A stretch of DNA of 64,000 nt, taken from positions 1,426,001-1,490,000 of the forward strand of contig NZ_CP069004.1 in assembly GCF_016801775.1 (NCBI RefSeq). The letters are read 5' to 3'. Numbering within the stretch: position 1 is the first letter of the stretch; every line of letters starts with the position of its first letter. The notes below the pieces were generated by a model, which saw only the letters and a program-made list of their open reading frames with translations, was not told the DNA's origin and ran no database searches. Position numbers and translations under genes: made by a program. The DNA is from Sulfitobacter mediterraneus (GTDB lineage: Bacteria; Pseudomonadota; Alphaproteobacteria; Rhodobacterales; Rhodobacteraceae). Below, in pieces: positions 19,102 through 35,164 of this stretch.

Positions 19102-19797
19102 TCAGGTACGCTGGCGTTCGAATTCGGCCCAGGCCGCCTCAAAACTGGCAAAGTCAAAGCCCGGCTCCCGCGCGGCATTCAGAACAATCTTTTCTGTCTC
19201 CAGGAGTTTGGCAATCGCGCCGCCGATCGCTCCCAGGTAATCATCCGGGATCACCAAGGCACCGTGACGGTCCGCATGCACCATCTCATTGTCCGCGACC
19301 TGCATCCCAAAGACGGTCACCGGTGTTGCGATTTCCAGCACATGCACAAAACCGTGGCTTGGCCCCACCGATCCGGCAATCACCGGAAAGTTGTCAGGCA
19401 AATCGCCCAGATCGCGCATCACCCCGTTGGTCAAGGCTCCGGCTAGGCCAAAGCCCTTGTGGACACTGGTGTTGATCTCGCCCCAATAGGCACCGATGGC
19501 CGCATCACCATCCACGTCTTCGACCACCGCCAGCGCCGGACGCGGGCCGCTGGCCATGTGGCGGTAATAATCCATACGCCGGGCGCGGATCACATCCGCC
19601 TCTTCTGTTGGGGGCGCAATCGCCGAGATTTTGGCCGTGCGGGCGCGGCCCACGATGGCCCCCGCGCCAGGATCACTGCACAGCACCGTGCCGCGCGTGA
19701 AACGGTCAAAACCGCGCTTGCCCTCCACCACCTCGATGGCGTTGCACACGGTTGGCGTATCGACAGAGCGCAGCAGCGCCAGCAGTTGTTCATCCAT
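19102..19797 (-). CDS. RraA-family protein (HMG/CHA-aldolase-like)
   Basis: 231 residues. RraA-like fold with the hallmark GALTNGVMRDLGDLP (Arg/Asp pair that binds substrate and metal in the aldolase subgroup) and GDAAIGAYWGE upstream. Members cleave 4-hydroxy-4-methyl- or 4-carboxy-4-hydroxy-2-oxo acids to pyruvate plus pyruvate or oxaloacetate, or decarboxylate oxaloacetate; true RraA (RNase E regulator) lacks the Arg/Asp pair. As the last gene of a catabolic operon, a pathway-ending aldolase role fits. It overlaps the hydrolase gene by 8 bp. The actual substrate is unknown. Confidence 0.82.
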   Translation of the reverse strand: MDEQLLALLRSVDTPTVCNAIEVVEGKRGFDRFTRGTVLCSDPGAGAIVGRARTAKISAIAPPTEEADVIRARRMDYYRHMASGPRPALAVVEDVDGDAAIGAYWGEINTSVHKGFGLAGALTNGVMRDLGDLPDNFPVIAGSVGPSHGFVHVLEIATPVTVFGMQVADNEMVHADRHGALVIPDDYLGAIGGAIAKLLETEKIVLNAAREPGFDFASFEAAWAEFERQRT

Positions 19798-20497
19798 TGT
19801 CTATCTCCTCAAGCCAGCGGCGCAGCGCGGCGGTTGTTTCGTCAGGTTGTTCCAGCACCGGCAAATGGCCCGCGCCTTCGATGATGCAAAGCCGTGATTG
19901 GGGCATCAGACCGGCCATCAATTCATGCCGCTCCACCGGGCAAAGCTGATCCTGCCGCCCGCAGAGCACCAGCGCCGGACCGTCAAAGCAGCGCAAGGTT
20001 TCGGTCTGGTCGGGCCGGTTCATCAGGGCAACGGATTGGCGGCAAAACACCTCCGGCCCCAGCGCCAATGCCATATCCATACACAGATCTAGGATCTCGC
20101 CCCGGCGCGGCCCATCGCTGAGGTAGTTGGGCTTCATCTCGTCGCGCATCACGCTATCAAGCTGGCCATTGCGGGCCTTGTCCATCTGCGGGGCGCGTCG
20201 GGCTTTGACCTCATCTTTTTCCGCCAATGGATTGGTGTCCATCAGGGCCAGCCCCGCAACGCGGTCCGGCGCCTGGCGCAAGACCTCCATCGCCACGATC
20301 CCGCCCATAGACAATCCGCCAAGGGCAAATCGCGGCGGCGCGGCGGCAAGGATCGTTTCGGCCAAGGCCTCGACACTATCCGCGCTGGCAAGGTCATGGA
20401 CCTCTACCGCACGGCCCGCGCCGAAAACATCAATCTGGGGGGAAAACAGCCGGGCATCACACATCATGCCCGGCAACAGAACAAGCGGGGTTGTCAC
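19790..20497 (-). CDS. Alpha/beta hydrolase
   Basis: 235 residues from a GTG start that overlaps the upstream stop codon (GTGA). Oxyanion/N-terminal LLPGMMCDARLF, nucleophile elbow GGLSMGGIVAMEV (Ser), late Asp in LCGRQDQLCPVE and His in EGAGHLPVLEQP complete the triad. Related enzymes include enol-lactonases and C-C or ester hydrolases. A longer in-frame extension would lie inside the MetE-like gene and was rejected. Co-transcribed with RraA-like and MetE-like genes; substrate unknown. Confidence 0.83.
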   Translation of the reverse strand: MTTPLVLLPGMMCDARLFSPQIDVFGAGRAVEVHDLASADSVEALAETILAAAPPRFALGGLSMGGIVAMEVLRQAPDRVAGLALMDTNPLAEKDEVKARRAPQMDKARNGQLDSVMRDEMKPNYLSDGPRRGEILDLCMDMALALGPEVFCRQSVALMNRPDQTETLRCFDGPALVLCGRQDQLCPVERHELMAGLMPQSRLCIIEGAGHLPVLEQPDETTAALRRWLEEIDNG

Positions 20498-21618
20498 TTG
20501 ACCAGTGCCACCCCTTCGGCCAATGCCGACAGCTTGGCATAGGCGATATCGGGATCCACAGTGCCAAATCCGGCAAAGGTGCCAAAGCCGCAATCGCTTC
20601 CTGCGATGACCCTGTCCTTGCCTACGATATCGACAAACCGCTGGGTCCGCTGCGCCACCAGTTCGGGATGCTCGACAAAATTGGTGGTGGTATCGACGAC
20701 ACCGGGCACCAGCACCTTGTGATCCGGGATATCCGCCTTGCGGTCCCGGAACGTGGTCCATTCATGGCCATGGCGCGGATTGGAGGTTTCGAACAACACA
20801 TACTGCGCCTTGGCAGACATCAGCGTATCAAACATGGTCGCCATCGGCACGTCGCAGATATGCGGCCCCTCGTAGTTGCCCCAGCAGATATGAATGCGCA
20901 CTTTGTCTTCCGGCACGTTTTGCAGCGCATGGTTCAACGCCTCGACATGGGAGTTGGCGATCTTCACAAACTCTGCATCGCTCAGATCGTTGAAAAGCAT
21001 GTGCCGCGACAGCGCCAGATCCGGGCAATCAAGTTGCAGATCCAGACCCGAGGCCACAATCGCCTCGTATTCGTCTTTCATCGCATCCGCCAGCGCCGCC
21101 AGATAGGCCTCGCGGGTGGCATAGTGATCGTTCTGCAAAAACAGCGAGATCACACCGGGCGATGCTGCATTCATAAAACCGCGCTCTGCGCCATGCGTGG
21201 CCATCGCGGCCTTGAGGTTGGCAATGTCTTTCTCAAGCTCGCCCTGACCTTTGGATTTGACCGGCCCTACGCACATCGGGCGGGCATATTGCGGGGTGCC
21301 GCCGTCATCGGCCAAACGTTTGAGAAAGCCGGGAAATTTCTTGAGATCCGCTGGCGCGTGGCGGGGGCTGTCGCCGTCAAATCCGGTGTAGCGGTCTTTG
21401 ACATATGTGGCATAGCTGATCTTGGAGGTTTCCCCGTCCGAGACAATGCTGACGCCCGCCTCAACCTGTTTGCGCACGGTGTCCGACACCGCCGCAGTCA
21501 TTGCCGCGTCAAAGGCCGCCGGATCGTAGTTTTCGTTGTTTTCGCGGGCGAAAATGAAATCCACGACCTCTTGGGTCCGGGGCAAAGAGCCCACATGGGT
21601 GGTTTTGATCGTTGTCAT
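20494..21618 (-). CDS. MetE C-domain / epoxyalkane-CoM-transferase-like zinc enzyme
   Basis: 374 residues, the size of a stand-alone MetE catalytic barrel. TTHVGSLPR at the N-terminus is typical of the family. Zinc ligands are visible: His243-x-Cys245 (HICWGN), Glu277 (LFETSN) and Cys343 (GSDCGFGTF). The family includes archaeal or core MetE, epoxyalkane:coenzyme M transferase and other zinc-thiolate alkyl transferases, all of which activate a thiol. There is no N-terminal MetE domain, so it is not the normal housekeeping methionine synthase. GGAAGAG lies upstream of the ATG. The catabolic context suggests demethylation or thiol/epoxide transfer on the imported substrate, which is inference. 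Confidence 0.83.
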   Translation of the reverse strand: MTTIKTTHVGSLPRTQEVVDFIFARENNENYDPAAFDAAMTAAVSDTVRKQVEAGVSIVSDGETSKISYATYVKDRYTGFDGDSPRHAPADLKKFPGFLKRLADDGGTPQYARPMCVGPVKSKGQGELEKDIANLKAAMATHGAERGFMNAASPGVISLFLQNDHYATREAYLAALADAMKDEYEAIVASGLDLQLDCPDLALSRHMLFNDLSDAEFVKIANSHVEALNHALQNVPEDKVRIHICWGNYEGPHICDVPMATMFDTLMSAKAQYVLFETSNPRHGHEWTTFRDRKADIPDHKVLVPGVVDTTTNFVEHPELVAQRTQRFVDIVGKDRVIAGSDCGFGTFAGFGTVDPDIAYAKLSALAEGVALVK

Positions 21619-21635
21619 GTGGGCTCTTCCCTTGT

Positions 21636-22604
21636 TTAGTTTTCGGTCCAGGTTGCGCCGGCCGGATCATCGGTCGCGGTTACACGATAAAGGCTGGCCT
21701 CGCCGGTCATGGAGGGGGCCAGCGCATGGGCCTCCTGTGGGTTGATCAGCGCGGTGTCACCGGGGTTTAGCACAGTTTCATAACCTTCAAAACGCAATGT
21801 CCAATGGCCGCGCATCGGCATCAGCACAACATGTTTTTCATGGCTGTGCATCTCGTCCGCGATGGACCCACGGGTCAGGAAATCCACCTCGAAACCCGGT
21901 TTGTCTTTCAGCAATGCATCGGTGCCGATCACCTTGGCCGGCTTCTTGCCGGCCAGTGCCATCAGATCCCAGTACCGCGCGACATATCGCGGCACGACAT
22001 TTTCCACGGGCACTTCGGGGAATTCCTTGAGCTGTTCGGCGCTCAGCAATGGCATGGGCGATACATTGTGCGGCAGCTCCTGACCCTTCTTGGTGTCATA
22101 AAGCACACCGTTCTCGCCCAGAACCAATCCATGCGCACTGGCCTCTTCGATCACATGCGGCGCCCAGGTCACGCCGCCACCTGCATCGTCACCGCCAAGG
22201 ATGGCCATGATCATCCCGTAATCGGTGCCAACGTTTTCAAAGCCGCGGAAAATGCCGGTGGGGATGTTAAAGATATCCCCCTCTTCGGCGATAAATTCGC
22301 CCGCTGTGCCGTGCAGACCCCAGAAAAAGCGCCAGCGCCCTTTCAGAACAAAAAACACCTCTGCCGTGGTGTGGCTGTGCAGGGAGTTGCGGCATTTGGG
22401 CGGTTGTCCCGCCGCCCCGATGTTAAAGCCGGGGGTGTCGCGGATATGGACGTGTTGGTCCGGGCTTTCGGAAACCCCGCCGCCGATAATAGTAAAGTTT
22501 TCCTTTTGATCGCTGCCCGGTGTGTGAGCGTCGATAAAGGCCGTTTTGCAGGGCTTCAGCTCGCCATAGCGAACGATGCGTTTTTCGATGTCTGCGCGTG
22601 TCAT
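21636..22604 (-). CDS. Bicupin protein
   Basis: 322 residues with two cupin domains. N-terminal: LHSHTTAEVFFVLKGRWRFFWG (about residues 76-97) and GDIFNIPTGIFRGFEN. C-terminal: MHSHEKHVVLMPMRGHWTLRFEG (about 248-270) and GDTALINPQEAHAL. Both motif-1 copies keep two His residues, and a Glu in the first copy, so metal binding is likely. Such proteins may be dioxygenases, isomerases or oxalate-decarboxylase-like enzymes. It lies 17 bp upstream of the MetE-like gene on the same transcript. No function can be fixed. Confidence 0.82.
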   Translation of the reverse strand: MTRADIEKRIVRYGELKPCKTAFIDAHTPGSDQKENFTIIGGGVSESPDQHVHIRDTPGFNIGAAGQPPKCRNSLHSHTTAEVFFVLKGRWRFFWGLHGTAGEFIAEEGDIFNIPTGIFRGFENVGTDYGMIMAILGGDDAGGGVTWAPHVIEEASAHGLVLGENGVLYDTKKGQELPHNVSPMPLLSAEQLKEFPEVPVENVVPRYVARYWDLMALAGKKPAKVIGTDALLKDKPGFEVDFLTRGSIADEMHSHEKHVVLMPMRGHWTLRFEGYETVLNPGDTALINPQEAHALAPSMTGEASLYRVTATDDPAGATWTEN

Positions 22605-22658
22605 ATGAATATTCCGTTTGTTCAGTTGTCTGGTTTTGGATGTGGGCCGATGGCCCGT

Positions 22659-22796
22659 TCAGATCACTGCAACTCCCGGTGGGCGCAGGTTCAGCCGCCG
22701 CGCACGGCGGCTTTGGAAATAGGCATGCAAACGCCGGGTCTGCGCGGTCTCGCACAGGCCCGATGTCTGGCAAAAGGGCTGTTGCCCTGCGTCCAT
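22659..22796 (-). CDS. Possible 45-residue small protein
   Basis: Frame MDAGQQPFCQTSGLCETAQ... ending in a basic stretch (QSRRARRLNLRP) and VAVI. GGAG sits 9 nt before the ATG, and the start codon lies 1 nt after the TAA stop of the SnoaL-like gene, a spacing that suggests translational coupling. It fills most of the only sizeable gap (193 bp) between the SnoaL and bicupin genes. Two Cys in a C-x5-C arrangement. No known family. Absence of homologs would make it doubtful. Confidence 0.4.
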   Translation of the reverse strand: MDAGQQPFCQTSGLCETAQTRRLHAYFQSRRARRLNLRPPGVAVI

Positions 22797-22797
22797 T

Positions 22798-23787
22798 TTA
22801 AAGGTCTCCGGTCTGAAGCAGGATTTGCTTCCAGACAGATGTTTCGTCAAACAAGGACCATTCGCGGCGCAGCTTGGGCTCGCCGCCCACAAGCGCCCCA
22901 AATTCGGCGTGACTTGCACCGAGGATGAACACATCCTTGCCCGTGGGCACACCAAAGCTGCCCCAACCGCTGTGCTTGCCGTGCAAGGTCCAGCGCAAGG
23001 CTGCTCGGGGCGGCATCATTGGATCATCGCGGCCAATCGTGTGGTGGATCTTGAACTCCGCATTCGGGAAGGACGCCCGAAGCCCCATCCAGAACTGGTC
23101 CGCCCCGTCGAATGACATCGCTTCAATGCCGCCCGGATAATTAAGGTTCGCCGCGCGGTCATATTCCTGCGGGATCACGGTAAAATCGGCATTCATGATA
23201 CGGGTCAGGATATCGGCGAACCGCTGTCCCCATTCATTGTCGTTGCCGGTGCCCTTGTAGGGACCTTCGACGTCATTTGCAGGGGTATAGGGCCGTACAC
23301 AATTTTCCGGACCACCCTCGCGGGCGATGAGATCACGGGCATAATCCTTGGGGTCAACGCCCAGCTGGCGCACAATCGCACCCTGATCGCGGATCAGCCA
23401 TTCGTCGTTGATCTGGTTATTGATCGCATGGCAATCCGCAAGAATCCGGTAACCCAGTTTCTTGCCCGTCGCCGCGCCGTAAACGCCAGGATTGCTGTGC
23501 GTTGCCGTCGAATACAGCCGGTGCGAGCTGAGCATGCCCTCCTCGGGCGTGCCGGACCAAATGACGTCTTCGCCAAACAGGGTCCGGTCAGGAAACTCCG
23601 CCAGCGTGGCCATGGTGGCCGCAATCACCCCTTCATTGCCAACCACAACCGAGGCAGGTGAGCGCACAACGATGTCGGGTGCATAATATTGATGCAGCGT
23701 GGAAATGCCGCGATCTTCCCAGATCTCTTTGGTGATACCGATGATATAGTCGGGAAAATCGGTGAATTTAGGGTCAAACCCTTTCAT
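22798..23787 (-). CDS. SnoaL/NTF2-like protein 1 (two-domain)
   Basis: 329 residues. The first NTF2-fold half contains GYRILADCHAINNQINDEWLIRDQGAIVRQLGVD (about 110-143), matching the conserved tract in the other SnoaL-like proteins of the cluster; a second half repeats the fold (LRASFPNAEFKIHHTIGRDD...). The family covers polyketide cyclases, isomerases and dehydratases. The ATG at 23787 (MKGFDPKF) has AAGG 9 nt upstream and overlaps the lacI stop by 4 bp (ATGA); the ATG 9 nt earlier abuts the ribosome site. Function unknown. Confidence 0.78.
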   Translation of the reverse strand: MKGFDPKFTDFPDYIIGITKEIWEDRGISTLHQYYAPDIVVRSPASVVVGNEGVIAATMATLAEFPDRTLFGEDVIWSGTPEEGMLSSHRLYSTATHSNPGVYGAATGKKLGYRILADCHAINNQINDEWLIRDQGAIVRQLGVDPKDYARDLIAREGGPENCVRPYTPANDVEGPYKGTGNDNEWGQRFADILTRIMNADFTVIPQEYDRAANLNYPGGIEAMSFDGADQFWMGLRASFPNAEFKIHHTIGRDDPMMPPRAALRWTLHGKHSGWGSFGVPTGKDVFILGASHAEFGALVGGEPKLRREWSLFDETSVWKQILLQTGDL

Positions 23788-24803
23788 TGTGTCCATCCTT
23801 CAGGAATGCGTGCCGAGCTGCGTACAACCAGCTGGCCTTCTATTTCAAACAGGCCGGGTTTTCCGGCTGGTTTTTCAATTTGGTCGATCAGAGTTTCGAC
23901 CGTTGCATCGACCATGCGATTGACCGGTTGCCGCAGCGTTGTCAGGTCGTAAGAGCCCCAACTTGCCATTGGCACATCGTCATATCCCACAATCGAAATG
24001 TCTCTGCCGGGTGTCATCCCGGCGTCGCGGACCGCGTCCATCACGGCAAAGGCCATGTGATCGTTGCCAACAAAAATCGCATCTGCCGGGTCTGTACGGT
24101 CCACCAGGGACCGCGCCGCCGCCATTGCGATATCGCGTTTATACATGCCTTCCAGCACGTCAAACGGCTCCACCCCTGCCGCTTCAAGCGCGGTAACAAA
24201 CCCCTCTTGGCGATCACGGCCCGTCGAACTGCCCTGCCAACCGGCGATATGGGCGATCCGCTCATGTCCGCCAGCCATCAGGAATTCCGCCACCTTGGCG
24301 CCGCCCAACACGTTGTTTGAGGTGACGTTGGAAAACCCTTCGCCGTTTTGGCCCCGGTTGAACAGAACGACAGGAATCCCAGCCGAGCGCGCCCGCGCCG
24401 CCAGATCCGAACTCATCGAAACCGACGCCGCGACAATGCCATCGACCTGATAATCCATCAGATCCTGCAAAACGCTGTCGATCCCGTCGGTGGAGTTTGG
24501 CGCGGTGAAGATCAGGATGTGATAGCCCTTGGCCTGCAAGGCATTTGAAAGCAGTTCAAGCGCGACGGGATAGAATTGGTTTTCCAGATAGGCCACCACC
24601 AACCCGATGATGCGGCTGCGCCCTGATACCATCGCACGGGCCAGAACATTGGGCCGGTAGCCCAGTTCTGCCGCGGCAGTGCGCACCTTCTCCACAGTCT
24701 TGGCCGAGGCCGAAGCACCGGGCGTGAACACCCGGCTGACCGCCGATTGGCTTACGCCTGCGCGGGCGGCAACTTCTGCTGAGGTGACCTTGTTCTGCGC
24801 CAT
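23784..24803 (-). CDS. LacI-family transcriptional regulator of the catabolic cluster
   Basis: 339 residues. The N-terminal LacI HTH and hinge (VTSAEVAARAGVSQSAVSRVF ... ASAKTVEKVRTAAAELGYRPN, shown in parts) is followed by a periplasmic-binding-protein-like ligand domain (IIGLVVAYLENQFYP; SIVGYDDVPMASWGSYDLTTLRQP). It lies in the middle of the operon it presumably controls. Matching CG-centred palindromes are found at 33204-33219 and 33260-33275 in the cluster's divergent promoter. The start at 24803 (MAQNKVT) gives the usual short arm before the HTH; an ATG at 24818 is possible but sits directly on GGAGG. Confidence 0.92.
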   Translation of the reverse strand: MAQNKVTSAEVAARAGVSQSAVSRVFTPGASASAKTVEKVRTAAAELGYRPNVLARAMVSGRSRIIGLVVAYLENQFYPVALELLSNALQAKGYHILIFTAPNSTDGIDSVLQDLMDYQVDGIVAASVSMSSDLAARARSAGIPVVLFNRGQNGEGFSNVTSNNVLGGAKVAEFLMAGGHERIAHIAGWQGSSTGRDRQEGFVTALEAAGVEPFDVLEGMYKRDIAMAAARSLVDRTDPADAIFVGNDHMAFAVMDAVRDAGMTPGRDISIVGYDDVPMASWGSYDLTTLRQPVNRMVDATVETLIDQIEKPAGKPGLFEIEGQLVVRSSARIPEGWTQ

Positions 24804-25567
24804 CAGTCTGCTGTCCATCCTCCGTCGATCAGCATCGCCGTGCCGGTGACAAGCGCAGAGGCATCTGAGGCCAGATATACCGCAGCGCCCATGATATCCT
24901 CGACCTCGCCTGCGCGGCCCAGCTTGATCTTCTCTTCGATCCAGGCGCGTTTGGCCGGATCATCAAATGTCGGGCGTGTCAGGTCGGTCAGGATGAAGGT
25001 CGGGCAAATGGTGTTGATGCGGATCTTCGCCGGTCCCCATTCAATCGCCATCGCCTTGGTCATGCCTTCCACGGCATGTTTGGACGCACAATAAAGCGCC
25101 CGTTCCTGTCCTCCGACATGACCCATCTGGCTGGAGATCGTGATCAGTGAACCCGGCTTGCCCGCATCCATCAACCCCTGTGCCACGGCTTGGGCCAAGA
25201 AATAGGTGCCGCGCACGTTCACGCCCATCACCGCGTCAAAATCCTCTGACGTTGTGTTCAGCGCCGGAGCATGGCGCGCCGTGCCAGCGGCATTGAGCAG
25301 GATATCAAACGGATCGGCCGCACCGACCGCTGCGCGGGTGCCTTCCAGATCGCCGATGTCCAACTGCATGATTTCCGCGCTCCAGCCCTTTTCAGCAAAG
25401 GCCGCCGCGCAGTCTTCCAAGGCGCCGCGCCGCCGGGCCGCCAGCGTGACAGAGGCGCCCGCCTCTGCCAAAGCGGTCGCGCAGGCCAGCCCGATCCCGG
25501 AAGACGCCCCCGCAACAAGGGCGCGTTTTCCATCCAGACGAAAGGACGGTGTTGAAGGCAATTCCAT
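24803..25567 (-). CDS. SDR-family NAD(P)-dependent oxidoreductase
   Basis: 254 residues, classical SDR. Cofactor motif GASSGIGLACA, NAAG near residue 90, catalytic Ser (ISSQMGHVGG) with Tyr-x3-Lys (YCASK), and a C-terminal LIDGGWTAD. Oxidises or reduces an alcohol/ketone, probably of a sugar-like or polyol-like intermediate. ATG at 25567 with GGAG 7 nt upstream, overlapping the previous stop by 1 bp. Very likely a pathway enzyme of the cluster. Confidence 0.9.
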   Translation of the reverse strand: MELPSTPSFRLDGKRALVAGASSGIGLACATALAEAGASVTLAARRRGALEDCAAAFAEKGWSAEIMQLDIGDLEGTRAAVGAADPFDILLNAAGTARHAPALNTTSEDFDAVMGVNVRGTYFLAQAVAQGLMDAGKPGSLITISSQMGHVGGQERALYCASKHAVEGMTKAMAIEWGPAKIRINTICPTFILTDLTRPTFDDPAKRAWIEEKIKLGRAGEVEDIMGAAVYLASDASALVTGTAMLIDGGWTAD

Positions 25568-26622
25568 CAAGGGTCTCCTACTGGGAATGGCACCGCGCCG
25601 GGCACGCGGGCCTTGTTGAACTCCCGCAGACGGGCAAAGACGTCTACACCCAATTGCCGGTAGGCATCCAGAATATCAACCGTCACCCAGTTCTCGCGGA
25701 TCTTGCCATCTTCAATACGCCAGAAATCCAGCGACCGCATGGTGATTTTCTTGCCCGAAGGGGCAATCCCGAGCCAACCGTCATGGGTCACGGTCTGGAT
25801 CATATTGGGCCAGCCCGTGACGGCAGCATAATTGTTGTCGCCAAAGAAGTGATAGGTGATCTCATCCACATATTGGCCGCGGTCCGGCATGCCGCCCAGA
25901 AACGGGATCTGGTGCCAGTTGCGAAAACCTGCATAGCCGCGCCCGGTTCCGATGCCCGCAGGCCCGTACCAGTTCATACGTTCGTCCCAATACTTGGGCA
26001 TTTGCATGACTTCAGGACCGCCTTTGGACGGATGCAGCTTGAGATGTTCCAGCATATCCACGATCAGGTCGCAGCTTTGCTGGCTTTGCTCAGGATCACG
26101 CGCGGGGCGGTGCAGCCCATCACAGGTGGCCGGCCCCGGCACGCAATACTCGCGCCCCAGCGAAGGCGACATGGGCCATGCATTGGCCTGCATCATCACT
26201 TCGGGGATGTCCCAGATCGCCTGAAACTCCACCACTTTGCCGTTCTCGAACCTGTAGAATTCGTGAAACCGCATGTGGCACAAATGGCCCGTTGGCGGGA
26301 TATCCAGAAACGGCGCGGCAAAGGTGCCGTAGAAATGCCCGCCGCAGCCGACCCATTCTGCCCCGTCGCCATCCTGCCCTGCCATCACGATCCAGTCGCG
26401 CCGCTCTACGTCGGGCCAAGCGGCCCGAAGCGGGGCCAAAGCCCCGTCATAAAACGCCTCAGCGCCGATCAGATCCCCGAAAGGGTGGCAGTGGTGAAAC
26501 ACTGCGTCCGGCGCAGTGATATCGTCAAGCGCCTTGCGAATGGCCGCCGCGTCCCAGTTGTACTGGGCCGCCCGCAGGGCCGCGAGGGCGCTTTTGTTGG
26601 CCTCGTGTCTGTCTTGCGTCAT
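25567..26622 (-). CDS. SnoaL/NTF2-like protein 2 (two-domain)
   Basis: 351 residues built from two NTF2-fold halves. In half 1: [28 protein letters not shown] and [26 protein letters not shown]. In half 2: [26 protein letters not shown] and [19 protein letters not shown]...QLGVDVF. The second half aligns by eye with the whole of protein 3 (27935-28471), and the first half with the start of protein 4 (33300-34301), so these are paralogs. ATGA overlap with the HisD-like gene. Catalytic type unknown (cyclase, dehydratase or isomerase are family options). Confidence 0.8.
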
Positions 26623-27929: not shown

Positions 27930-27934
27930 TGCTC

Positions 27935-28471
27935 TTATCCTTGATTGTCGGGCCGGGGCGGCGTTTTTTCGCCCCGGTCATAGCTTTCCCAGCCTTCGCC
28001 GTTGAACACATCGACACCCAGCTGGGCTAATACATGCGGAAAATCGACCATCACCCAGTTGTCCGAGATCTTGCCGTCTTCAACTTTCCAGAAATCCATG
28101 TAGCGGATTTCAATTCTTTTACCTGTGGGCGCGAGACCCATGAAATCGCCCGAATGCGTGGCTTCCTGCCGGCCAAAGGCCGCGGCCCATTCGCCCATGT
28201 AAAGGCGGGCCTCGTCCACACAGACCTTGTCCGAGAACGCCGCCTGAAAGGGGCGTTGCCAGTTGTCCTGAAACTGCGTCAGGCCGGTTTTGGTGCCGCA
28301 GCCGGTGTTGCCCATCCAGCGAAAGCTATCGTGGAAGAATGCGCCAATGCCATCAATCGTATGGTCATTCAGCCCATCTACCATGCCTTCGATCACGGCG
28401 CGGGTCTCATCTGTTTTGCTCAGGTCCGTATCACGGCTCAGCACGGCTTGTTCGGGTCGGGATCCTTTCAT
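27935..28471 (-). CDS. SnoaL/NTF2-like protein 3 (single domain)
   Basis: 178 residues. One NTF2-fold domain containing [46 protein letters not shown] and [21 protein letters not shown]; this corresponds to the C-terminal half of protein 2. The last 20 residues are charged and Pro-rich. It sits 5 bp ahead of the HisD-like gene and after a 122-bp gap with a hairpin, so it may begin a second expression segment of the operon. Family known, reaction not. Confidence 0.8.
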
Positions 28472-28561: not shown

Positions 28562-28593
28562 GGCAGTTGCCCCATGTCGTGCCTTGCTGCTCA

Positions 28594-29748
28594 TCAGCCT
28601 TTCACCGCACCTGCGGTCAGGCCGCTGACGATCTGGCGTTGGAACACCATCACCAGCAGGAACAATGGCGCCGTGATCGACACCGCCGCAGCCACAGCAA
28701 CCACTTGGTCAGTGGTGGTGGTTTCGCGGTTGAACATGCCTGCGATCGCCGGAACCATCGTTTGATTGCTGGCATCAAGCAGCAAAGAGGTCACGAGGAA
28801 GTCGTTATAGGCCAGCAAGAAGCTGAAGAGACCCGTCGTGATCACCCCCGGCCACATGACTGGCATGATCACCAGACGGAAGGCTTTGAAGTGTGAACAG
28901 CCGTCCACACGTGCGGCCTCGTCCAGATCCGCAGGGATGTTGGAGAAGAAGCTGCGCAGCATCCAGATCGTAAAGGGTTGGTTGATCGCCACCAGAACCG
29001 CGATCACCGCGATGGGCTTGCCGTAAAGCGTGGGCGCGTTTTCACCCAAGATCGGGGCCAGCCATTCAGACGAGCTGATGAACACAGGCAGGTAGCCTGC
29101 GACCAGAACCGAATGCGGCAGGGCGCGGAAAACAAGTGCAATGATCAGCAGCCAGAAGGCCAGAACCGAACCGGACCGTGCCAGCCCGTAGCCTGCCAAT
29201 GTCCCCACCGTCAGAGAGACAGTCACAACGCCGGCGGTCACGATCAGGGAGTTGGCAAAGTTGTTGGCAAATCCGCGTTCAAACCAGACCGTGTAATAAT
29301 GTTCCGTGGTTGCGCCCAGCACATCTTTGCCAAGCGGGCCAAGCAGTGGGTTCACCACGTTGCTGACCACGGGGAACACCCCGAGGAACAAAAAGATCAC
29401 AGCGACACCCGCCAGCGCAGCAGCGATGATCCAGCCCAGCACCAGCCAACCGCCGGGAGAGTGGCGTTCGACCAGTGCGGGCAACCGCTGCATGCAGAGG
29501 CGGATCACGAAATAGATCAGCACAACGCCAAGCAGGATATCGAACAGCGAGAGCCCATTGCCATTGGCCACGGTTTCGGGGCCAAAGATCACGTTCAGCG
29601 GGTTGCTGTCGAAAGCATCCACGGGGGATTTGAAGCTCATCACCGTGATCCAGAAGATCGGGAAAGCGGCGATCACACTCCAGATCGCGAGGAAGCTGCC
29701 CGATGCGATCTTGAGCGATGTCGGTTGTTGAAGGGCGCGAGCAGTCAT
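28594..29748 (-). CDS. ABC transporter permease 2 (CUT1/MalG type)
   Basis: 384 residues. The C-terminal 280 residues are a normal MalG-like permease with the EAA loop (NIPADLDEAARVDGCSHFKAFRLVIMP) that contacts the ATPase. Between the first membrane helix (about 16-36) and the core there is an extra stretch of about 100 residues with two more hydrophobic segments (LFDILLGVVLIYFVIRL; WLVLGWIIAAALAGVAVIFLF), unusual for this family. It overlaps permease 1 by 1-3 bp (TAATG). Partner of permease 1, the binding protein and the TTG-started ATPase. Confidence 0.93.
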   Translation of the reverse strand: MTARALQQPTSLKIASGSFLAIWSVIAAFPIFWITVMSFKSPVDAFDSNPLNVIFGPETVANGNGLSLFDILLGVVLIYFVIRLCMQRLPALVERHSPGGWLVLGWIIAAALAGVAVIFLFLGVFPVVSNVVNPLLGPLGKDVLGATTEHYYTVWFERGFANNFANSLIVTAGVVTVSLTVGTLAGYGLARSGSVLAFWLLIIALVFRALPHSVLVAGYLPVFISSSEWLAPILGENAPTLYGKPIAVIAVLVAINQPFTIWMLRSFFSNIPADLDEAARVDGCSHFKAFRLVIMPVMWPGVITTGLFSFLLAYNDFLVTSLLLDASNQTMVPAIAGMFNRETTTTDQVVAVAAAVSITAPLFLLVMVFQRQIVSGLTAGAVKG

Positions 29749-30770
29749 TAGTGGGTCCCCCGATGGTCGCGCCAGGTGCGCTTGAGAAGTGGCACGAGCA
29801 GGATCGCAATCCCGATCATTGTCAGCATGGCCGAGGCCGATGCCCGTGAAACAGAGCGGTTGCCTGCCTGATCCGGCACAAGGAAGTCATAGGTCAGCCA
29901 TTGCAGGGAAATCACGTAACCCTGGCTGCTGAAGCCAACGATCTCTTCGAAGGCACGGTAGCAATCCATCAGGTGAATGATGGTCACAAAGATGATCAGC
30001 GGCATCAGATGCGGAATAATGATCAGGCGCAGACGCTGCCAACGGCTTGCCCCGTCGATCACCGCGCTTTCAAGGCTGTCCTGGTTCACTGTCTGGAGGC
30101 CGGCATAGAAGATGATCGCGGCAAAGGGCGCGACGTGCCAGACGCGGTAGAACATCATCATCAATTCGATGGTCCAGGCCTGGGCAAAGAGCGCCAGATC
30201 CTTGGCGGTCCACCATTCCAGAAAGGCCGTCAGAATACCGTCGCCGCGGAACAGCCAGTTGATCGAAAGAGCGCCGATCACAGGTGTCACGACAAATGGC
30301 AGCAGCGAGATAAAGATCACCGGCCCGCGAATGGCGCGGCTGGCGTTGTTGATGGTGAGCGCGATCAGCAACCCGGTGCCCACAACAAGTGGCAGGGTGA
30401 CCAGCGTAAACATCAGGGTAAAGCGCAGAGCTTTCCAGAAATCGATGGTTTGCAGCTTGCCCCATGCCCCTTCGGACACAGCCTCCCAGAAACGGTCCAG
30501 TTCAAGCACATTGCGGTAGCTTTGCAACCCGACGAATGTGGTCTCTGTAATGACCTCGCCATGTTCGTCCAGCTCCGGGATGGTTTGTGTTTCCATCGTA
30601 CAGGTCTGGGTCAGAAAACCCGGCGTGCAGGTCTCAACTTCGATGGTTTTGTAGATAGGCTGTGTCAGATTAAAGCTTTGCCAGAACACCGTGATCAGCG
30701 GGAAAGCAATAAAAATCAGCATTATCAATACGGACGGGCCGACAAATGCGGCGAATGTCTTGAACTTCAT
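29748..30770 (-). CDS. ABC transporter permease 1 (CUT1/MalF type)
   Basis: 340 residues, about six membrane segments, and the EAA loop (NQDSLESAVIDGASRWQRLRLIIIPHLMP). The first periplasmic loop is expanded (about residues 35-85) and contains two Cys (TCTPGFLTQTC) that could form a disulfide. ATG at 30770 with a strong GGGAGG upstream; a longer frame extends into the hairpin region and was rejected. Works with permease 2 to move the imported carbohydrate-like substrate across the inner membrane. Confidence 0.93.
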   Translation of the reverse strand: MKFKTFAAFVGPSVLIMLIFIAFPLITVFWQSFNLTQPIYKTIEVETCTPGFLTQTCTMETQTIPELDEHGEVITETTFVGLQSYRNVLELDRFWEAVSEGAWGKLQTIDFWKALRFTLMFTLVTLPLVVGTGLLIALTINNASRAIRGPVIFISLLPFVVTPVIGALSINWLFRGDGILTAFLEWWTAKDLALFAQAWTIELMMMFYRVWHVAPFAAIIFYAGLQTVNQDSLESAVIDGASRWQRLRLIIIPHLMPLIIFVTIIHLMDCYRAFEEIVGFSSQGYVISLQWLTYDFLVPDQAGNRSVSRASASAMLTMIGIAILLVPLLKRTWRDHRGTH

Positions 30771-30825
30771 GCGACCTCCCTTTCCGGTATTCGGCTGTTT
30801 GTTAATTGAGTTGGTTTGGGAAATC

Positions 30826-30850
30826 GGGGCCGCCCGCAAAAGGCGGCCCC
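30826..30850 (-). repeat. Stem-loop after the substrate-binding-protein gene
   Basis: Perfect 9-bp stem GGGGCCGCC / GGCGGCCCC with a 7-nt loop, 10 nt behind the stop of the binding-protein gene. Such stem-loops commonly protect the mRNA of the abundant binding protein and lower expression of the downstream permeases. No U-tract. Confidence 0.6.
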
Positions 30851-30859
30851 GCAACCGGA

Positions 30860-32068
30860 TCAGTCGATCAGGCCGGATTCTTTGGCAGCTGTTATATAGG
30901 CCGCTTCGATGTCTGCCAGCGCAGTTGCCGCGTCTTTTGCACCGGTCAGGTAGTCGGAGATCCCGTTACCCAAAGAGGTGTGCATGATGCCCATCGGACC
31001 GGACGCAGGGTAAGGCTTGGCACCTTTTTGTGCGGTCGCCGCAGCGCCGGCTGCCAGTGGACCAGGCTCATAGCCTGCGATCAGCCACACAGCCGCGTCG
31101 TTGTTGGCTTTGACGACTTCCTCGTCCATGCCTTCCATCGCAACGCGGAACGCCGCTTCGGCTTCTTCGTCGGTGATGTTGGAGGCGATCACGATACCGT
31201 CCCACCAGATCGAGGAGGCAGGTGCAGCAGAACCCATTGGCGCAGCGGCCATTTTGACTTTGCCGACAACTTGGCTTTCCGCTTCGTCATCCATTGCGCC
31301 GCCGCGGCTGGCCCAGAGGTTCGCCATGGCGATTTTGCCCTGCTGGAACTGCTGCTGCACATATGTGGAATCGGACACCAGGTATTCTGGATCCATATAC
31401 GCGGTCAGAGCCTTGAGTGTTTCAAGAGACTTGATGCCCTTTTCGTTGTTGATCGTTGGCATGTTGTTGCCGTCGATGAACGAACCGCCCTCGCCGAGAT
31501 ACATGTTGATGAACTCTTCGCCGAGGTTCCAACCTGTTTTGAAGGTGCCACCCAAGGGGTATTCAACAACGCCTGCCGCCTTGATCTTCTCAGCTGCGGC
31601 CAACACTTCGTCATAGGTTGTCGGAACAGCGATACCCAGATCGTTCAGGATGTCCTCGCGGTACATCAGGTGCTGGTTGTTCACCATCATGGCAATCGCC
31701 ATGATCTTGCCATCCACAGTGATCTTCTGGTTTGGCGTCAGGTTCTGGCCGTATTTGGCAACCAGATCATCCAACGGACGGATCGAGCCGCTTGTCAGCA
31801 GCGGGATCATGGTGGAGTTGGCAACGCCGCCAATGTGATACAGCGATGGGTTCGCAGCGAAAGCTTCTGGCTGCTTTTCGCGGAAGTCCTGGTCGAGGTT
31901 GGCCTCGAAGTTCCCGCATTCTGCCATCGCGTCTGTGACAGCTTTCCATGCTTCAAAGCCCGCAGACAGCGAACGCAATTCGACAGTGTTTTCAAACGCG
32001 CAGTCCGCAGCAACAATGCTGCCTGCAACGCTCATCACACCTGCCATGAGGATTGTCTTGAGTTTCAT
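30860..32068 (-). CDS. ABC transporter substrate-binding protein (CUT1, extracellular solute-binding family 1)
   Basis: 402 residues. Signal peptide residues 1-20 (MKLKTILMAGVMSVAGSIVA, cleavage about A20/A21). The mature part is a family-1 solute-binding protein (NPSLYHIGGVANSTMIPLL; NQHLMYREDILNDLGI; GKIAMANLWASRGG). Cys residues at mature positions 3 and about 31 may form a disulfide. The ATG at 32068 has GGGAG 9 nt upstream. The family binds mono- or oligosaccharides, polyols or sugar-like compounds; the ligand cannot be deduced here. Flanked by stem-loops on both sides. Confidence 0.93.
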   Translation of the reverse strand: MKLKTILMAGVMSVAGSIVAADCAFENTVELRSLSAGFEAWKAVTDAMAECGNFEANLDQDFREKQPEAFAANPSLYHIGGVANSTMIPLLTSGSIRPLDDLVAKYGQNLTPNQKITVDGKIMAIAMMVNNQHLMYREDILNDLGIAVPTTYDEVLAAAEKIKAAGVVEYPLGGTFKTGWNLGEEFINMYLGEGGSFIDGNNMPTINNEKGIKSLETLKALTAYMDPEYLVSDSTYVQQQFQQGKIAMANLWASRGGAMDDEAESQVVGKVKMAAAPMGSAAPASSIWWDGIVIASNITDEEAEAAFRVAMEGMDEEVVKANNDAAVWLIAGYEPGPLAAGAAATAQKGAKPYPASGPMGIMHTSLGNGISDYLTGAKDAATALADIEAAYITAAKESGLID

Positions 32069-32092
32069 TTGGTTTTCTCCCTGTAGATAAAG

Positions 32093-32110
32093 CCGCGCCT
32101 TGGGGCGCGG
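32093..32110 (-). repeat. Hairpin between ATPase and binding-protein genes
   Basis: 7-bp stem CCGCGCC / GGCGCGG with a 4-nt loop, located upstream of the binding-protein ribosome site. A possible attenuation or mRNA-processing point. Confidence 0.5.
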
Positions 32111-32127
32111 TTCGGTTTGCCGGAGGA

Positions 32128-33177
32128 TCAATCCTCCAGCCGTGCCCCTGTTTCTGCATCAAACAAGTGGCAGTGATCTTGAGGTATCGTGATCGACACC
32201 ATATCGCCGATCTCGGCGCGGAAGGTTTTGTCCGCACGGGCACTGACCAGCGCACTTCCGATCCGAACGCTGACCATGGTCGCATCGCCCAAAAGCTCCA
32301 GCGTGTAGATCGGCGCATTGATATTGCCGCCTTCCGCAGAAACCGTCGCATCCTCGGCGCGGAAGCCCAAAGTGATCGGGCCGTCCTTGACCTTCAGACC
32401 CGGAATGTTGGTGTGCTTGGCCGTGAAGGCGCCGCCCGCGATCTCGCCATCGATCAGGTTCATCGCCGGGTTGCCGATAAAGCTGGCGACAAAGGTGTTG
32501 GCCGGACGGTCATAGATGTCTGTGGGGCTGCCAACCTGTTGCACGATGCCTTTTTCCATCACCACAACCCGATCCGCGAGCGTCATCGCCTCAATCTGGT
32601 CATGGGTCACGTAAATGGTGGTCGCCGCCAGCTCGTGGCTGAGGTTCTTGATCTGGGCACGGGTTGAAACCCGCAGCTTGGCGTCGAGGTTTGACAGAGG
32701 TTCATCCATCAAGAACACATTCGGCTCACGCACAATAGCGCGGGCCAAGGCCACACGCTGGCGCTGACCACCCGAAAGCTCTGCCGGTTTGCGGTGCAGG
32801 AATTCGTCGAGTTCCACCATCGCGCTGGCCCGCATCACTTTTTCATTGTGGGTCGTAGGATCGACCCCCCGCACCCGCAATGGAAAGCGGATGTTCTCAT
32901 AAACGTTGAGATTGGGATAAAGCGCGTAACTCTGGAACACCATCGCCACGTCGCGATCTTTGGGTTCCAGATCATTCACGACCTGACCACCGATCAGGAT
33001 CTCACCATCGGTGGGATCCTCCAGACCTGCGATCATCCGCATGGTTGTTGTCTTGCCGCAGCCCGAAGGCCCCAGCAGAACCAGAAATTCCCGATCCGCA
33101 ATCGTCAGATCGAATTTGTTGACACCTATGAAGGCACCCCATCGTTTTGAAACGCCGGACAATTTGATTTCGGCCAA
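32128..33177 (-). CDS. ABC transporter ATP-binding protein (CUT1/MalK/UgpC type)
   Basis: 349 residues. Walker A GPSGCGKTT, Q-loop QSYALYP, signature LSGGQRQR, Walker B VFLMDEPLSNLD, H-loop VTHDQ, then a C-terminal OB-fold regulatory domain as in MalK (about 240-349). The start is a TTG (read as Met, AEIKLSGVSKRWG) supported by GGGGGGAG 6 nt upstream; no ATG is available at a correct position. It is the first gene of the long minus-strand operon and lies right behind the two LacI-type palindromes. Confidence 0.93.
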   Translation of the reverse strand: MAEIKLSGVSKRWGAFIGVNKFDLTIADREFLVLLGPSGCGKTTTMRMIAGLEDPTDGEILIGGQVVNDLEPKDRDVAMVFQSYALYPNLNVYENIRFPLRVRGVDPTTHNEKVMRASAMVELDEFLHRKPAELSGGQRQRVALARAIVREPNVFLMDEPLSNLDAKLRVSTRAQIKNLSHELAATTIYVTHDQIEAMTLADRVVVMEKGIVQQVGSPTDIYDRPANTFVASFIGNPAMNLIDGEIAGGAFTAKHTNIPGLKVKDGPITLGFRAEDATVSAEGGNINAPIYTLELLGDATMVSVRIGSALVSARADKTFRAEIGDMVSITIPQDHCHLFDAETGARLED

Positions 33178-33203
33178 AGCGATCTCCCCCCGCAATGATG
33201 TTT

Positions 33204-33219
33204 TTGCATACGTTTGCAA
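33204..33219. promoter_or_regulatory. LacI-type operator 1 (TTGCATACGTTTGCAA)
   Basis: 16-bp palindrome with one mismatched pair and the central CG typical of LacI-family sites, 27 nt upstream of the ATPase start. It has the same core (GCATACGTTTGC) as operator 2 in inverse orientation. Probable binding site for the LacI regulator encoded at 23784-24803. Confidence 0.7.
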
Positions 33220-33259
33220 CAAGGGTAGACATGTGACCTACCTTACGGCAAGTTCTTTT

Positions 33260-33275
33260 TCGCAAACGTATGCAA
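33260..33275. promoter_or_regulatory. LacI-type operator 2 (TCGCAAACGTATGCAA)
   Basis: Second copy of the CG-centred palindrome. Its centre is 56 bp from that of operator 1, about 5.3 helical turns. It lies 25 nt upstream of the GTG start of SnoaL protein 4. Two operators in one divergent promoter suggest joint repression of both arms. Confidence 0.7.
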
Positions 33276-33299
33276 AAAACTGAACCACAGGCTTATAAC

Positions 33300-34301
33300 G
33301 TGTTAACATTTAAAGAAGAAAAGCGCCTCGTCCGCGCCCACCATGCCGCCCTCATTTCGGCAGATCCGGCGAAAATCGGCGAATCGATGCAGCGTGATGT
33401 TGCCGAAGATTACCTCTGGCGCGGCTTCCATCCCTTTGGGCTTATCAATGGCGCTGAGACCGTCGCCTCCCGCTTTTGGACGCCCCTGCGCACCGCCCTC
33501 ACCCGGATGCAACGGCGCGAGGATATCTTCTTTGCCGGCACCAACGAAATGGACGGCTTCAAAGGGGTCTGGGTGGTGTCCATGGGCCATCTGATGGGGC
33601 TGTTTGATCAGCCTTGGCTGGGCATCAAACCCACCAACAAAATGGCGTTCCTGCGGTATTGTAGCTTTGACCGGGTCGAGAATGGCAAAATCACCGAAAC
33701 AGCCATGTACTTCGACATTCCACACCTGATGACCCAGGCCGGGCAATGTCCCTTCCCGTCACAGACCGCCTTCCATCTGGTGCAACCCGGCCCGATGACC
33801 CACGACGGCTTGTTGATCGATGACCAACCCGAAGAGGAAGGCGCAGCCACGCTCGCTGCCATCAATGCGATGATTGGCGATCTGGGGCAGTGGAAATCCG
33901 GCCTGACCCTTGAGGACGAGCTGGTCCGCACATGGCATGACGACATGATCTGGTGGGGGCCAGAGGGGATTGGCGCGACCTACACCATTGAACGCTATGC
34001 CAAACAACACGCTGGCCCTTTCCGCGCCGGTTTCACCGACCGCGCCAAGACCAGACATATCGCAAGGCTGGCCGAGGGGCATTATGGCGGCTTTTTTGGC
34101 TGGCCCAATTTTACCGCCCGCCCCACCGGCGGCTTTATGGGACTGCCCGGCAGTGACACCAGCGGCGAATTCAGGGTGATCGACATCTACCGCCGCGACG
34201 GGGACAAGCTGGCCGAAAACTGGATCTTCATTGACCTGCTGCATTTCTGGAAGACCCAAGGTCGCGACTTTCTGGCCGAAGCCACAGGGCAGAGCACATG
34301 A
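33300..34301 (+). CDS. SnoaL/NTF2-like protein 4 (two-domain)
   Basis: 333 residues from GTG at 33300 (CAGG 8 nt upstream). This start places the HPFG motif at residue 44, the same as in protein 2 (residue 46); an ATG at 33270 lies inside operator 2 and has no ribosome site. Half 1: GFHPFGLINGAETVASRFW and CSFDRVENGKITETAMYFDIPHLM. Half 2: WWGPEGIGATYTIERYAKQ and IYRRDGDKLAENWIFIDLLHFW. Paralog of protein 2. It is the first gene of the plus-strand arm and overlaps the lactonase gene by 4 bp. Confidence 0.8.
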   Translation: MLTFKEEKRLVRAHHAALISADPAKIGESMQRDVAEDYLWRGFHPFGLINGAETVASRFWTPLRTALTRMQRREDIFFAGTNEMDGFKGVWVVSMGHLMGLFDQPWLGIKPTNKMAFLRYCSFDRVENGKITETAMYFDIPHLMTQAGQCPFPSQTAFHLVQPGPMTHDGLLIDDQPEEEGAATLAAINAMIGDLGQWKSGLTLEDELVRTWHDDMIWWGPEGIGATYTIERYAKQHAGPFRAGFTDRAKTRHIARLAEGHYGGFFGWPNFTARPTGGFMGLPGSDTSGEFRVIDIYRRDGDKLAENWIFIDLLHFWKTQGRDFLAEATGQST

Positions 34302-35164
34302 GAATAGACGCGCACCATCATCTTTGGGATCTCGGCGCTGTGCATTACCCTTGGCTGATGGCCAAGGGGGTGGAACGGTTCTTTGGCAACCCCGCCCCGA
34401 TCCAGCAGGACTATCTGCTGGATCAGTTTCGCAAGGATGCTGCCGGATTTGACGCCTCTGTCCATATTCAGGTGGGCGCCGCCGACAGTATCGCCGAGGC
34501 AACCTGGGTGCAGATGGTAGCGGACAACGCACCGGACTGGCCCTTGGCGCAGGTGGTGTTTTGCGATCTGACCGCGCCCGATCTTGATGCGCAGCTTGAT
34601 CATTTCCAGACGCTCAGCACCCTGCGCGGTGTGCGGCAGATCGTCGGCCGCGCCCCCGGCGAGGACGCCGTGACCGGCACCAACGATCTGCTGGACAACC
34701 CCGCGTTTGCCAAGGGGCTTGCGCTGGCTGGCAAACGCGGATTGTCCTTTGATCTGCAACTCATTCCCGAGCTTTACGATGGAATGGCACGGGTGTTGGA
34801 CCATGCCCCGGATGTACCTGTCGCATTGTGCCATGCCGGATCGCCCCATGATCGCAGCACGGCAGGCATCACCGCCTGGGCGAAATCCCTGCGCCGAATG
34901 TCCGAGCGCCCGCAGGTCACGTGCAAACTTTCGGGTTTGGGCATGTTTGATCACAACTGGACCGCAGACAGTATCCGCCCGATCATCGAGACATGCCTTG
35001 ATCAATTTGGTCCGGACCGCTGCATGTTTGGATCGAACTTTCCGGTGGATTCGCTTTACTCGGATTATGAAACGCTGATCGGCGCCTATGAGGCCATCGT
35101 GCCAGCAGACGCCAAACAGGCGGTCTTTGGCGGCACCGCAGCAGGTTTTTACGGCCTCAAATAG
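34298..35164 (+). CDS. COG3618-type amidohydrolase (sugar/dicarboxylate lactonase-like)
   Basis: 288 residues, TIM-barrel metal-dependent hydrolase. The N-terminal MRIDAHHHLWD supplies the HxH metal motif; VALCHAGSP and CMFGSNFPVDS (late Asp) complete the site. Members hydrolyse L-fuconolactone, L-rhamnonolactone or 2-pyrone-4,6-dicarboxylate. In this cluster it probably opens a lactone formed by one of the dehydrogenases. Coupled to SnoaL protein 4 by an ATGA overlap. Followed by core glpX 85 bp later. Confidence 0.86.
   Translation: MRIDAHHHLWDLGAVHYPWLMAKGVERFFGNPAPIQQDYLLDQFRKDAAGFDASVHIQVGAADSIAEATWVQMVADNAPDWPLAQVVFCDLTAPDLDAQLDHFQTLSTLRGVRQIVGRAPGEDAVTGTNDLLDNPAFAKGLALAGKRGLSFDLQLIPELYDGMARVLDHAPDVPVALCHAGSPHDRSTAGITAWAKSLRRMSERPQVTCKLSGLGMFDHNWTADSIRPIIETCLDQFGPDRCMFGSNFPVDSLYSDYETLIGAYEAIVPADAKQAVFGGTAAGFYGLK

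Follow-up and report, generated by a model that had tools for sequence, protein, structure and literature searches.

The DNA analysed here, referred to as the window, is a stretch of 64,000 nucleotides from Sulfitobacter mediterraneus (contig NZ_CP069004.1, positions 1,426,001 to 1,490,000), and its positions 19102-35164 hold a cluster of sugar-type importer, SnoaL and enzyme genes. Comparison with related loci indicates that the operon in this cluster is a conserved, widely shared catabolic route, which is uncharacterised as far as the literature searched goes. Judging from the gene content, the general order of the reactions is probably oxidation, ring or lactone opening, hydrolysis, and aldol cleavage yielding pyruvate. 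Mycosporines and mycosporine-like amino acids (MAAs) are tentatively proposed as the substrate, based on the gene content and on the chemistry of these compounds.

Gene content of the cluster

Open reading frames (ORFs) combined with Pfam and NCBIfam scans indicated 16 genes within 19102-35164, four of which encode SnoaL proteins. Fourteen genes on the minus strand form one tight operon, transcribed in the following order: an ABC ATPase of UgpC/MalK type (32128-33222; NCBIfam UgpC, 441.9 bits, cut-off 432), an extracellular solute-binding protein (30860-32131; Pfam SBP_bac_1), ABC permeases of UgpA type (29748-30854) and MalG type (28594-29748; both BPD_transp_1), the single-domain SnoaL_C (27935-28471; Pfam SnoaL), a predicted HisD/HpsN-like four-electron alcohol dehydrogenase (HisD, 26619-27929), the double-domain SnoaL_B (25567-26622; SnoaL), an SDR-family dehydrogenase (24803-25570; adh_short_C2, 197 bits), a LacI-family regulator (23784-24818; LacI and Peripla_BP_3), SnoaL_A with a double NTF2/SnoaL domain (22798-23796; SnoaL in two stretches), a bicupin predicted to be a ring-cleaving oxygenase (21636-22604; Cupin_2), a MetE-like (core-MetE) zinc methyltransferase (20494-21618; Meth_synt_2, 46 bits), a PcaD-like or esterase-like alpha/beta hydrolase (19790-20497; Abhydrolase, with the NCBIfam PcaD-type models below cut-off), and lastly an RraA-family protein, a predicted class II pyruvate aldolase (19102-19797; RraA-like, 50.9 bits). 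A divergent pair on the plus strand encodes the double-domain SnoaL_D (33270-34301; SnoaL) and a sugar-lactonase-like protein of the amidohydrolase-2 family (34298-35164; Amidohydro_2, 130 bits; fuconolactonase model 119 bits, below its cut-off of 400). Thus, the importer, LacI regulator, HisD, SDR, lactonase, bicupin, MetE-like, hydrolase, RraA and SnoaL gene types claimed in the original prediction, which had been made from the letters of the window, were all found.

Most neighbouring genes overlap or abut, the widest gaps being 194 and 123 bases, and the divergent genes are separated by 48 bases. The hydrolase start was placed near 20497 by comparison with relatives, giving a 4-base overlap with the end of the MetE-like gene, and the ORF start at 20761 was not used. 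Pfam matches exceeded the curated cut-off for each of the 16 genes, a permease scoring weakest at E 4.5e-9, and because of these matches and of the gene order kept in relatives, the cluster is regarded as beyond chance.

Conservation of the operon

A profile scan of genome contigs with the bicupin gave at least 582 confirmed relatives, and at least 6738 database proteins matched the bicupin at E 1e-20 or better. The best 80 of the at least 582 bicupin matches, together with two plasmid loci, were taken as a set of 82 loci selected by the bicupin. Since many of these loci are cut by contig ends or by the 10-kb flank, the following presence counts are lower bounds: bicupin 82, LacI 79, SDR and HisD 77 each, SnoaL_A 73, hydrolase 72, RraA 68, SnoaL_B 67, permease 1 65, MetE-like 64, ATPase and SnoaL_C 63 each, permease 2 62, binding protein 61, and SnoaL_D 4, the loci often being cut before the position of SnoaL_D. 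All 14 operon genes occurred in the order of the window in 41 of the 82 loci, and at least 10 of them in that order in 58. The order differed in 14 loci; it was scored from the best-scoring plus-strand match for each gene, and a few of these 14 reflect an ATPase match in a neighbouring transporter. In Ruegeria conchae, a divergent pair of an ester cyclase and an amidohydrolase occupies the position of the SnoaL_D/amidohydrolase pair.

In a sample of 198 genomes of the family, HisD of the window's clade was present in 99, the bicupin in 79 (81 less two genomes with partial matches, E about 1e-50), the MetE-like gene in 79, and SnoaL_B in 65. Of these genomes, 77 had both bicupin and HisD, 73 had both bicupin and MetE-like, and 57 had all four markers, whereas 97 had none of them. 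These associations among the marker genes are strong, with Fisher p-values that ignore shared ancestry. The cluster had been called an orphan in the original prediction, a description that does not hold given markers in 65-99 of 198 genomes, an operon conserved in relatives, and another cluster of related genes at a different site of this genome.

Several accessory gene clusters outside the operon genes were also seen among the 82 loci. Three of them reached at least five loci: a methyltransferase-like gene was seen in 10, a probable shadow ORF in 7, and a GMC-type oxidoreductase, recognised by eye, in 5. Four further clusters occurred in 4 loci each. The methyltransferase-like gene, recognised by eye and about 200 amino acids long, lies near the bicupin in loci L035, L046, L047, L048, L051, L057, L064, L078, L082, and L089. 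In one locus (L073, 12727-19098), a very large ORF of 2123 amino acids, judged by eye from its start to be polyketide synthase-like, stands beside an operon copy that showed neither hydrolase nor RraA.

The HisD-like dehydrogenase and its relation to HpsN

The solved structures nearest to HisD in PDB sequence matches were HpsN enzymes (8v35/8wwe). According to the available part of PMC11382572, the motif G-R-Y-A/S-H separates HpsN from HisD, and its histidine binds the sulfonate. At this position the HisD of the window carries G-K-F-P-M, and Met130 stands in place of the sulfonate-binding histidine in all 75 relatives that align here, with a gap in one additional row; HisD members of Klebsiella and Novosphingobium have leucine instead of methionine. 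The catalytic and zinc-site residues E319, H320, D353, K354, and H413 were kept in all 76 relatives, and Q251 and H254 in 75 with one gap. On the phylogenetic tree, in which some branches are very long, a K-F/Y-P clade containing this HisD was placed apart from HpsN and from a second-HisD clade with R-F/Y-P-L-L at the motif, and the bootstrap value of the uniting fork was 93, below the star threshold of the tool. Because the catalytic residues are kept and the sulfonate histidine is methionine, the enzyme is predicted to act in the manner of HpsN or HisD, oxidising a CH2OH group beside a carbinol or amine to COOH, without being classed as an HpsN.

These results bear on another explanation, in which the cluster would degrade a sulfonate, 2,3-dihydroxypropane-1-sulfonate (DHPS), by an HpsN-type enzyme with unusual partners. 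The HpsN enzymes of Cupriavidus and Ruegeria share with the window's protein the HisD fold, the Glu-His pair, the Asp-Lys pair (352/353), and the zinc ligands, besides being its closest solved relatives, and an SDR gene lies near HisD as HpsO lies near HpsN in the DHPS cluster, as far as the accessible text on that cluster goes. However, the His126 marker is replaced by methionine or leucine as described above, the clade is separate, and a distinct gene carrying the HpsN motif (GGRYSH) is located elsewhere in the genome, at 2.55 Mb. Moreover, no sulfo-lyase (SuyAB, Xsc, or CuyA) was named by Pfam or NCBIfam among the 16 proteins, the rest of the genome not being searched. With the marker replaced, no sulfo-lyase named in the cluster, and an HpsN-motif gene elsewhere, catabolism of DHPS was set aside as very improbable.

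The same genome has a second, related operon at about 3.457-3.469 Mb, containing SnoaL, a binding protein, two permeases, an ATPase, HisD, LacI, a bicupin, an amidase, a regulator of XRE-cupin type by eye, and a second HisD (3.468 Mb). Protein identity between this operon and that of the window is 31-70%, apart from the first HisD, for which it is 99.8%. The DNA of this hisD copy (3462607-3463914) is 97% identical to the hisD of the window, the two differing in 40 of 1311 bases (36 synonymous codons and 2 others). As the hisD copies are nearly identical while the neighbouring proteins are 31-70% identical, and as the similarity stops at the gene edges, gene conversion restricted to hisD is suggested; a single HisD activity would then serve both operons. 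Two equal-scoring copies of this HisD were also observed in one genome of the family sample (G188) and in one of the genus sample (G219).

The aldolase, hydrolase, MetE-like, bicupin and SnoaL proteins

D/E-X20-R-D is the motif for metal binding and catalysis in class II pyruvate aldolases of the RraA fold, and the corresponding E107-X20-R128-D129 of the window's RraA was kept in 68 of 68 relatives. In the HMG/CHA aldolase, which has this fold, Arg-123 is essential according to the available text of PMC5065237. The RraA profile matched the CHA aldolase 3noj at E 5.6e-4, and searches of the PDB with the single sequences of RraA and of the bicupin gave no match at E 0.001. Beside the shared motif, which includes the essential Arg, and this distant match, the differences from the HMG/CHA aldolase system are a very low sequence similarity and the ring-cleavage dioxygenase of its pathway, which is not among the 16 genes. 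In Klebsiella, an HpaI-type aldolase (187.6 bits, below the model cut-off of 368.8) fills the slot of RraA, and this replacement supports a pyruvate-releasing aldol cleavage as the predicted last step. The catalytic residues of the alpha/beta hydrolase were also kept, with Ser and His in 72 of 72 relatives and Asp in 71.

In the MetE-like protein, the four zinc ligands (His, Cys, Glu, and Cys) were kept in 64 of 64 relatives, as were Ser, Glu, and Asp residues that we take to be three homocysteine contacts. These features are those of core-MetE methyltransferases, from which the protein differs in that its gene sits in a catabolic operon. As stated in the accessible part of PMC12478193 (2025), a core-MetE homologue of Phaeobacter inhibens does not prevent the methionine auxotrophy of split-methionine-synthase mutants, and the function of core-MetE homologues in aerobic marine bacteria is questionable; its own suggestion is that the homologue is expressed only under cobalamin limitation. 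Because proteins 86-87% identical to the Leisingera MetE-like ortholog exist in P. inhibens, this homologue is probably the MetE-like protein of the operon; P. inhibens also has a bicupin.

Quercetin 2,3-dioxygenase performs an enolone ring cleavage, and the metal site of quercetinase consists of three His plus Glu. In the bicupin, H76, H78, and E82 were invariant in 27 sequences, and the first Foldseek matches of its structural model were quercetin 2,3-dioxygenase and 3-hydroxyanthranilate dioxygenase, with oxalate decarboxylase and other bicupins also among the nearest. The likeness to quercetin 2,3-dioxygenase and related bicupin oxygenases thus comprises the fold and the H-x-H and Glu of the N-terminal cupin, whereas the identity is about 10-18% and the fourth ligand is Arg instead of His. 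In a relative of the bicupin from Labrenzia, the C-terminal cupin is without its His pair. The model of SnoaL_B (predicted local distance difference test, pLDDT, 89.2) had two NTF2 domains and was nearest to two-domain epoxide hydrolases (MonB and Lsd19) and SnoaL cyclases, with PhzA/B lower in the list. The fold, and the two NTF2 domains per chain as in Lsd19, are therefore shared with known SnoaL/NTF2 enzymes, from which the window differs in having several paralogues together with an importer in a catabolic setting. The enzyme assignments of the original prediction can accordingly be refined: by its marker HisD is not a DHPS dehydrogenase, the bicupin model is similar to quercetinase and to other bicupins, and RraA has the aldolase motif.

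Cupins can also be isomerases, and another reading, in line with the original prediction, is a pathway for a branched or modified sugar, polyol, or sugar acid. A polyol or glycoside would be imported and oxidised by HisD and the SDR, the bicupin would isomerise or dehydrate the product, the lactonase or hydrolase would open a lactone, and RraA or the HpaI-type protein would release pyruvate and an aldehyde acid. Such a pathway makes use of the sugar-type importer with its UgpC-like ATPase, the LacI regulator, the lactonase-like protein, and the SDR, and the HpaI-type relative in Klebsiella also matches models of keto-deoxy-sugar-acid aldolases. However, three to five SnoaL proteins, the MetE-like protein, and the oxygenase-like fold of the bicupin are left without explanation, and neither a kinase nor a sugar-acid dehydratase was named among the 16 genes. 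We consider this alternative possible and somewhat doubtful.

Core and peripheral modules in variant clusters

Comparison of variant clusters, which were examples picked by eye and not a census, separates the operon into two parts. The peripheral module consists of the sugar-type ABC importer and the SnoaL proteins, often with the MetE-like protein, and the core module consists of HisD, SDR, bicupin, alpha/beta hydrolase, and an RraA or HpaI-type aldolase. Core variants were found on plasmids of Martelella, Ensifer, Klebsiella, and Novosphingobium. Klebsiella michiganensis has a core without SnoaL (LacI, HisD, SDR, MFS, hydrolase, HpaI-type aldolase, and cupin); Novosphingobium has a cupin, a hydrolase, SnoaL, two HisD, an SDR, an aldolase, and an amidase; and Antarctobacter has a partial core (TRAP, HisD, SDR, RraA, and a second aldolase) in which no bicupin was seen.

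The peripheral module was found in Vibrio pelagius as a related importer (55-62% identity) with SnoaL_A (65%), SnoaL_B (51%), and SnoaL_D (47%), next to sarcosine oxidase and purU genes, and no core genes occurred within the 27 kb covered. In the haloarchaeon Halobellus limi, which comes from a marine saltern, an importer is accompanied by five SnoaL proteins and a MetE-like protein. Of 103 loci scanned, four (L007, L011, L103, and L107) gave a strong amidase match, and all four also have a second HisD; by annotation, L104 has this pair as well. In L093, a second HisD was present with no amidase within the stretch covered. A MetE-like protein that shares 53% identity with the one in the window is encoded beside an NTF2-like gene on a plasmid of Sphingobium, and folate one-carbon genes and a GcvT-barrel protein, of the kind used for O-demethylation, lie within about 12 kb of it.

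In a further reading, the core chemistry is the same, but the main substrate, instead of mycosporines, would be a different ring compound that bears a hydroxymethyl group and an enolone or 1,3-diketone; gadusol and further C7 cyclitols are examples. The SDR would then turn a ring CHOH into a ketone, HisD, the bicupin, the hydrolase, and the aldolase would likewise be accounted for, and the Klebsiella core with an MFS transporter and without SnoaL or MetE-like proteins, as well as the Antarctobacter partial core with a TRAP transporter, would fit. This explanation points to no specific compound, however, and for unmethylated, unsubstituted cyclitols the MetE-like and SnoaL proteins have no explanation; we regard it as rather unlikely.

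Proposed breakdown of mycosporines

In 4-deoxygadusol, the ring shared by mycosporines and MAAs, C5 bears OH and CH2OH, C2 is O-methylated, and C1 and C3 carry the oxygen functions of an enol system. If mycosporines are the substrate, the SnoaL proteins would hydrolyse off the amino-acid substituents, HisD would oxidise the primary CH2OH of the ring, next to the carbinol, to COOH, and the MetE-like protein would remove the O-methyl group of the ring without cobalamin to give a reductone. The bicupin would then open the ring with O2 by C1-C2 cleavage, and the product would have the carbon skeleton of 4-carboxy-4-hydroxy-2-oxoadipate (CHA). An intermediate that is an ester or lactone is a possible substrate of the alpha/beta hydrolase, and RraA or the HpaI-type aldolase would split CHA with release of pyruvate. 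In the available text of PMC5065237, HMG/CHA aldolase converts 4-carboxy-4-hydroxy-2-oxoadipate to pyruvate and oxaloacetate.

The following are counted in favour of mycosporines: the operon order and marker co-occurrence, the zinc and catalytic residues of HisD together with its methionine, the first matches of the bicupin model, the RraA motif, the HpaI-type swap in Klebsiella, the zinc ligands of the MetE-like protein, the auxotrophy in P. inhibens, and the Vibrio, Halobellus, and amidase variants. Regarding these variants, the consulted portion of a review states that mycosporine-glycine and 4-deoxygadusol are formed from shinorine and porphyra-334 by Vibrio harveyi, and that MAAs are made by a saltern cyanobacterium. 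The amidase and second HisD would suit mycosporine-glutaminol, which is an amino alcohol that also bears an amide. The variants are consistent with mycosporines, although the fits were found post hoc.

Several points weigh against mycosporines. The proposal is drawn from chemistry and gene content, and the substrate was chosen after the genes had been seen. For the SDR, which 77 of the 82 loci contain, no clear role on 4-deoxygadusol is apparent, and the sugar or polyol pathway, which is close in probability, explains the importer, LacI, and SDR better. A quercetinase-like cleavage, in which C2 leaves as CO, would give citrate, and there would be no need for RraA. The fourth cupin ligand of the bicupin, as located by cupin motif 2, is Arg120 and not His in 27 of 27 sequences, the pLDDT of its model is moderate (70.7), and its Foldseek TM-scores are about 0.4-0.5, with oxalate decarboxylase and storage proteins tied; because so many matches tie, the function is not readable from the fold. 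Likewise, the SnoaL fold of the models does not tell the reaction, and RraA is very distant from the characterised aldolase 3noj. The MetE-like gene was not found in 18 of the 82 loci, some of them truncated. Among otherwise like operons, the binding protein is of two types, with 72-82% identity (25 loci) and 38-50% identity (35 loci), which may mean more than one substrate, and 22 of the 99 HisD-bearing genomes were without bicupin, meaning that HisD works in other settings too. Core variants in soil bacteria and Klebsiella need other substrates or terrestrial mycosporines, and the sarcosine oxidase neighbours in Vibrio may be unrelated to the module.

Taken together, mycosporines remain the substrate that we put forward, tentatively, and the operon might, with some doubt, represent the first gene cluster by which bacteria mineralise mycosporines and MAAs, through the SnoaL, MetE-like, HisD, bicupin, and RraA/HpaI steps above. 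In the literature searched, outside which most subscription journals lie, no paper on the gene set or on mycosporine catabolic genes was among the matches listed, nor was an already characterised cluster with the same gene set. The original prediction had read here a chain from import to central metabolites, and the gene content supports its dehydrogenase, hydrolase, and aldol-cleavage steps. It had further named a modified sugar, polyol, or methylated compound as the substrate; a methylated or modified polyol is plausible, and a sugar or polyol stands as a rival beside mycosporines.

Genomic context

Pfam and NCBIfam confirmed hom, glpX, and recJ as the genes flanking the cluster, in agreement with the flanks given in the prediction. 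Forty genomes of the genus were searched, 14 of which had HisD of the window's clade, and 30 hom loci were obtained. In 19 of these 30, hom and glpX are adjacent within 1.4 kb, and RraA adjoins hom in the genome of the window and in one close relative (hom 98% identical); in the other nine, neither glpX nor RraA was found within about 4.3 kb of sequence (2.7 kb in one). Since hom and glpX are neighbours in these 19 loci and RraA lies beside hom here, this copy of the cluster looks like an insertion between the two core genes. The closest named locus, also from Sulfitobacter mediterraneus, has a 98% identical bicupin and hom adjacent, on a contig ending inside HisD (last 33 residues only). In Octadecabacter arcticus, the operon was observed on a plasmid typed mobilizable, with IS6 transposases on both sides, IS5 transposases on one side, and fragments of a second ATPase and HisD nearby.

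The base composition gave no island signal (GC 0.590, against 0.594 and 0.603 in the flanks), and a sigma-70 promoter scan of the region gave 1 site against 6.2 expected. A terminator-like hairpin of 12 pairs lies directly past the last gene (19076-19049, minus strand); because the region has 24 terminator-like sites, with 16.7 expected from shuffled sequence, the hairpin alone is weak evidence. A PADLOC scan of SnoaL_D gave no match. Elsewhere in the window (49368-61434, minus strand) lies a natural-product cluster with large biosynthetic genes, encoding a 1527-residue protein with formyltransferase, AMP-binding, luciferase-like monooxygenase, and carrier domains, a 2160-residue polyketide synthase (KS, AT, KR, DH, ACP, and thioesterase), and a glycosyltransferase-2 between them.

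Significance

The presence of the marker genes in a third to half of the sampled genomes of the family (65-99 of 198) means that the operon is a common catabolic route. If the proposal is true, a function would be assigned to the core-MetE homologues of marine bacteria, and a branch of HisD, SnoaL arrays, and a bicupin would be seen to cooperate in ring degradation. If mycosporines are the substrate, the microbial fate of algal and coral sunscreens would become testable.

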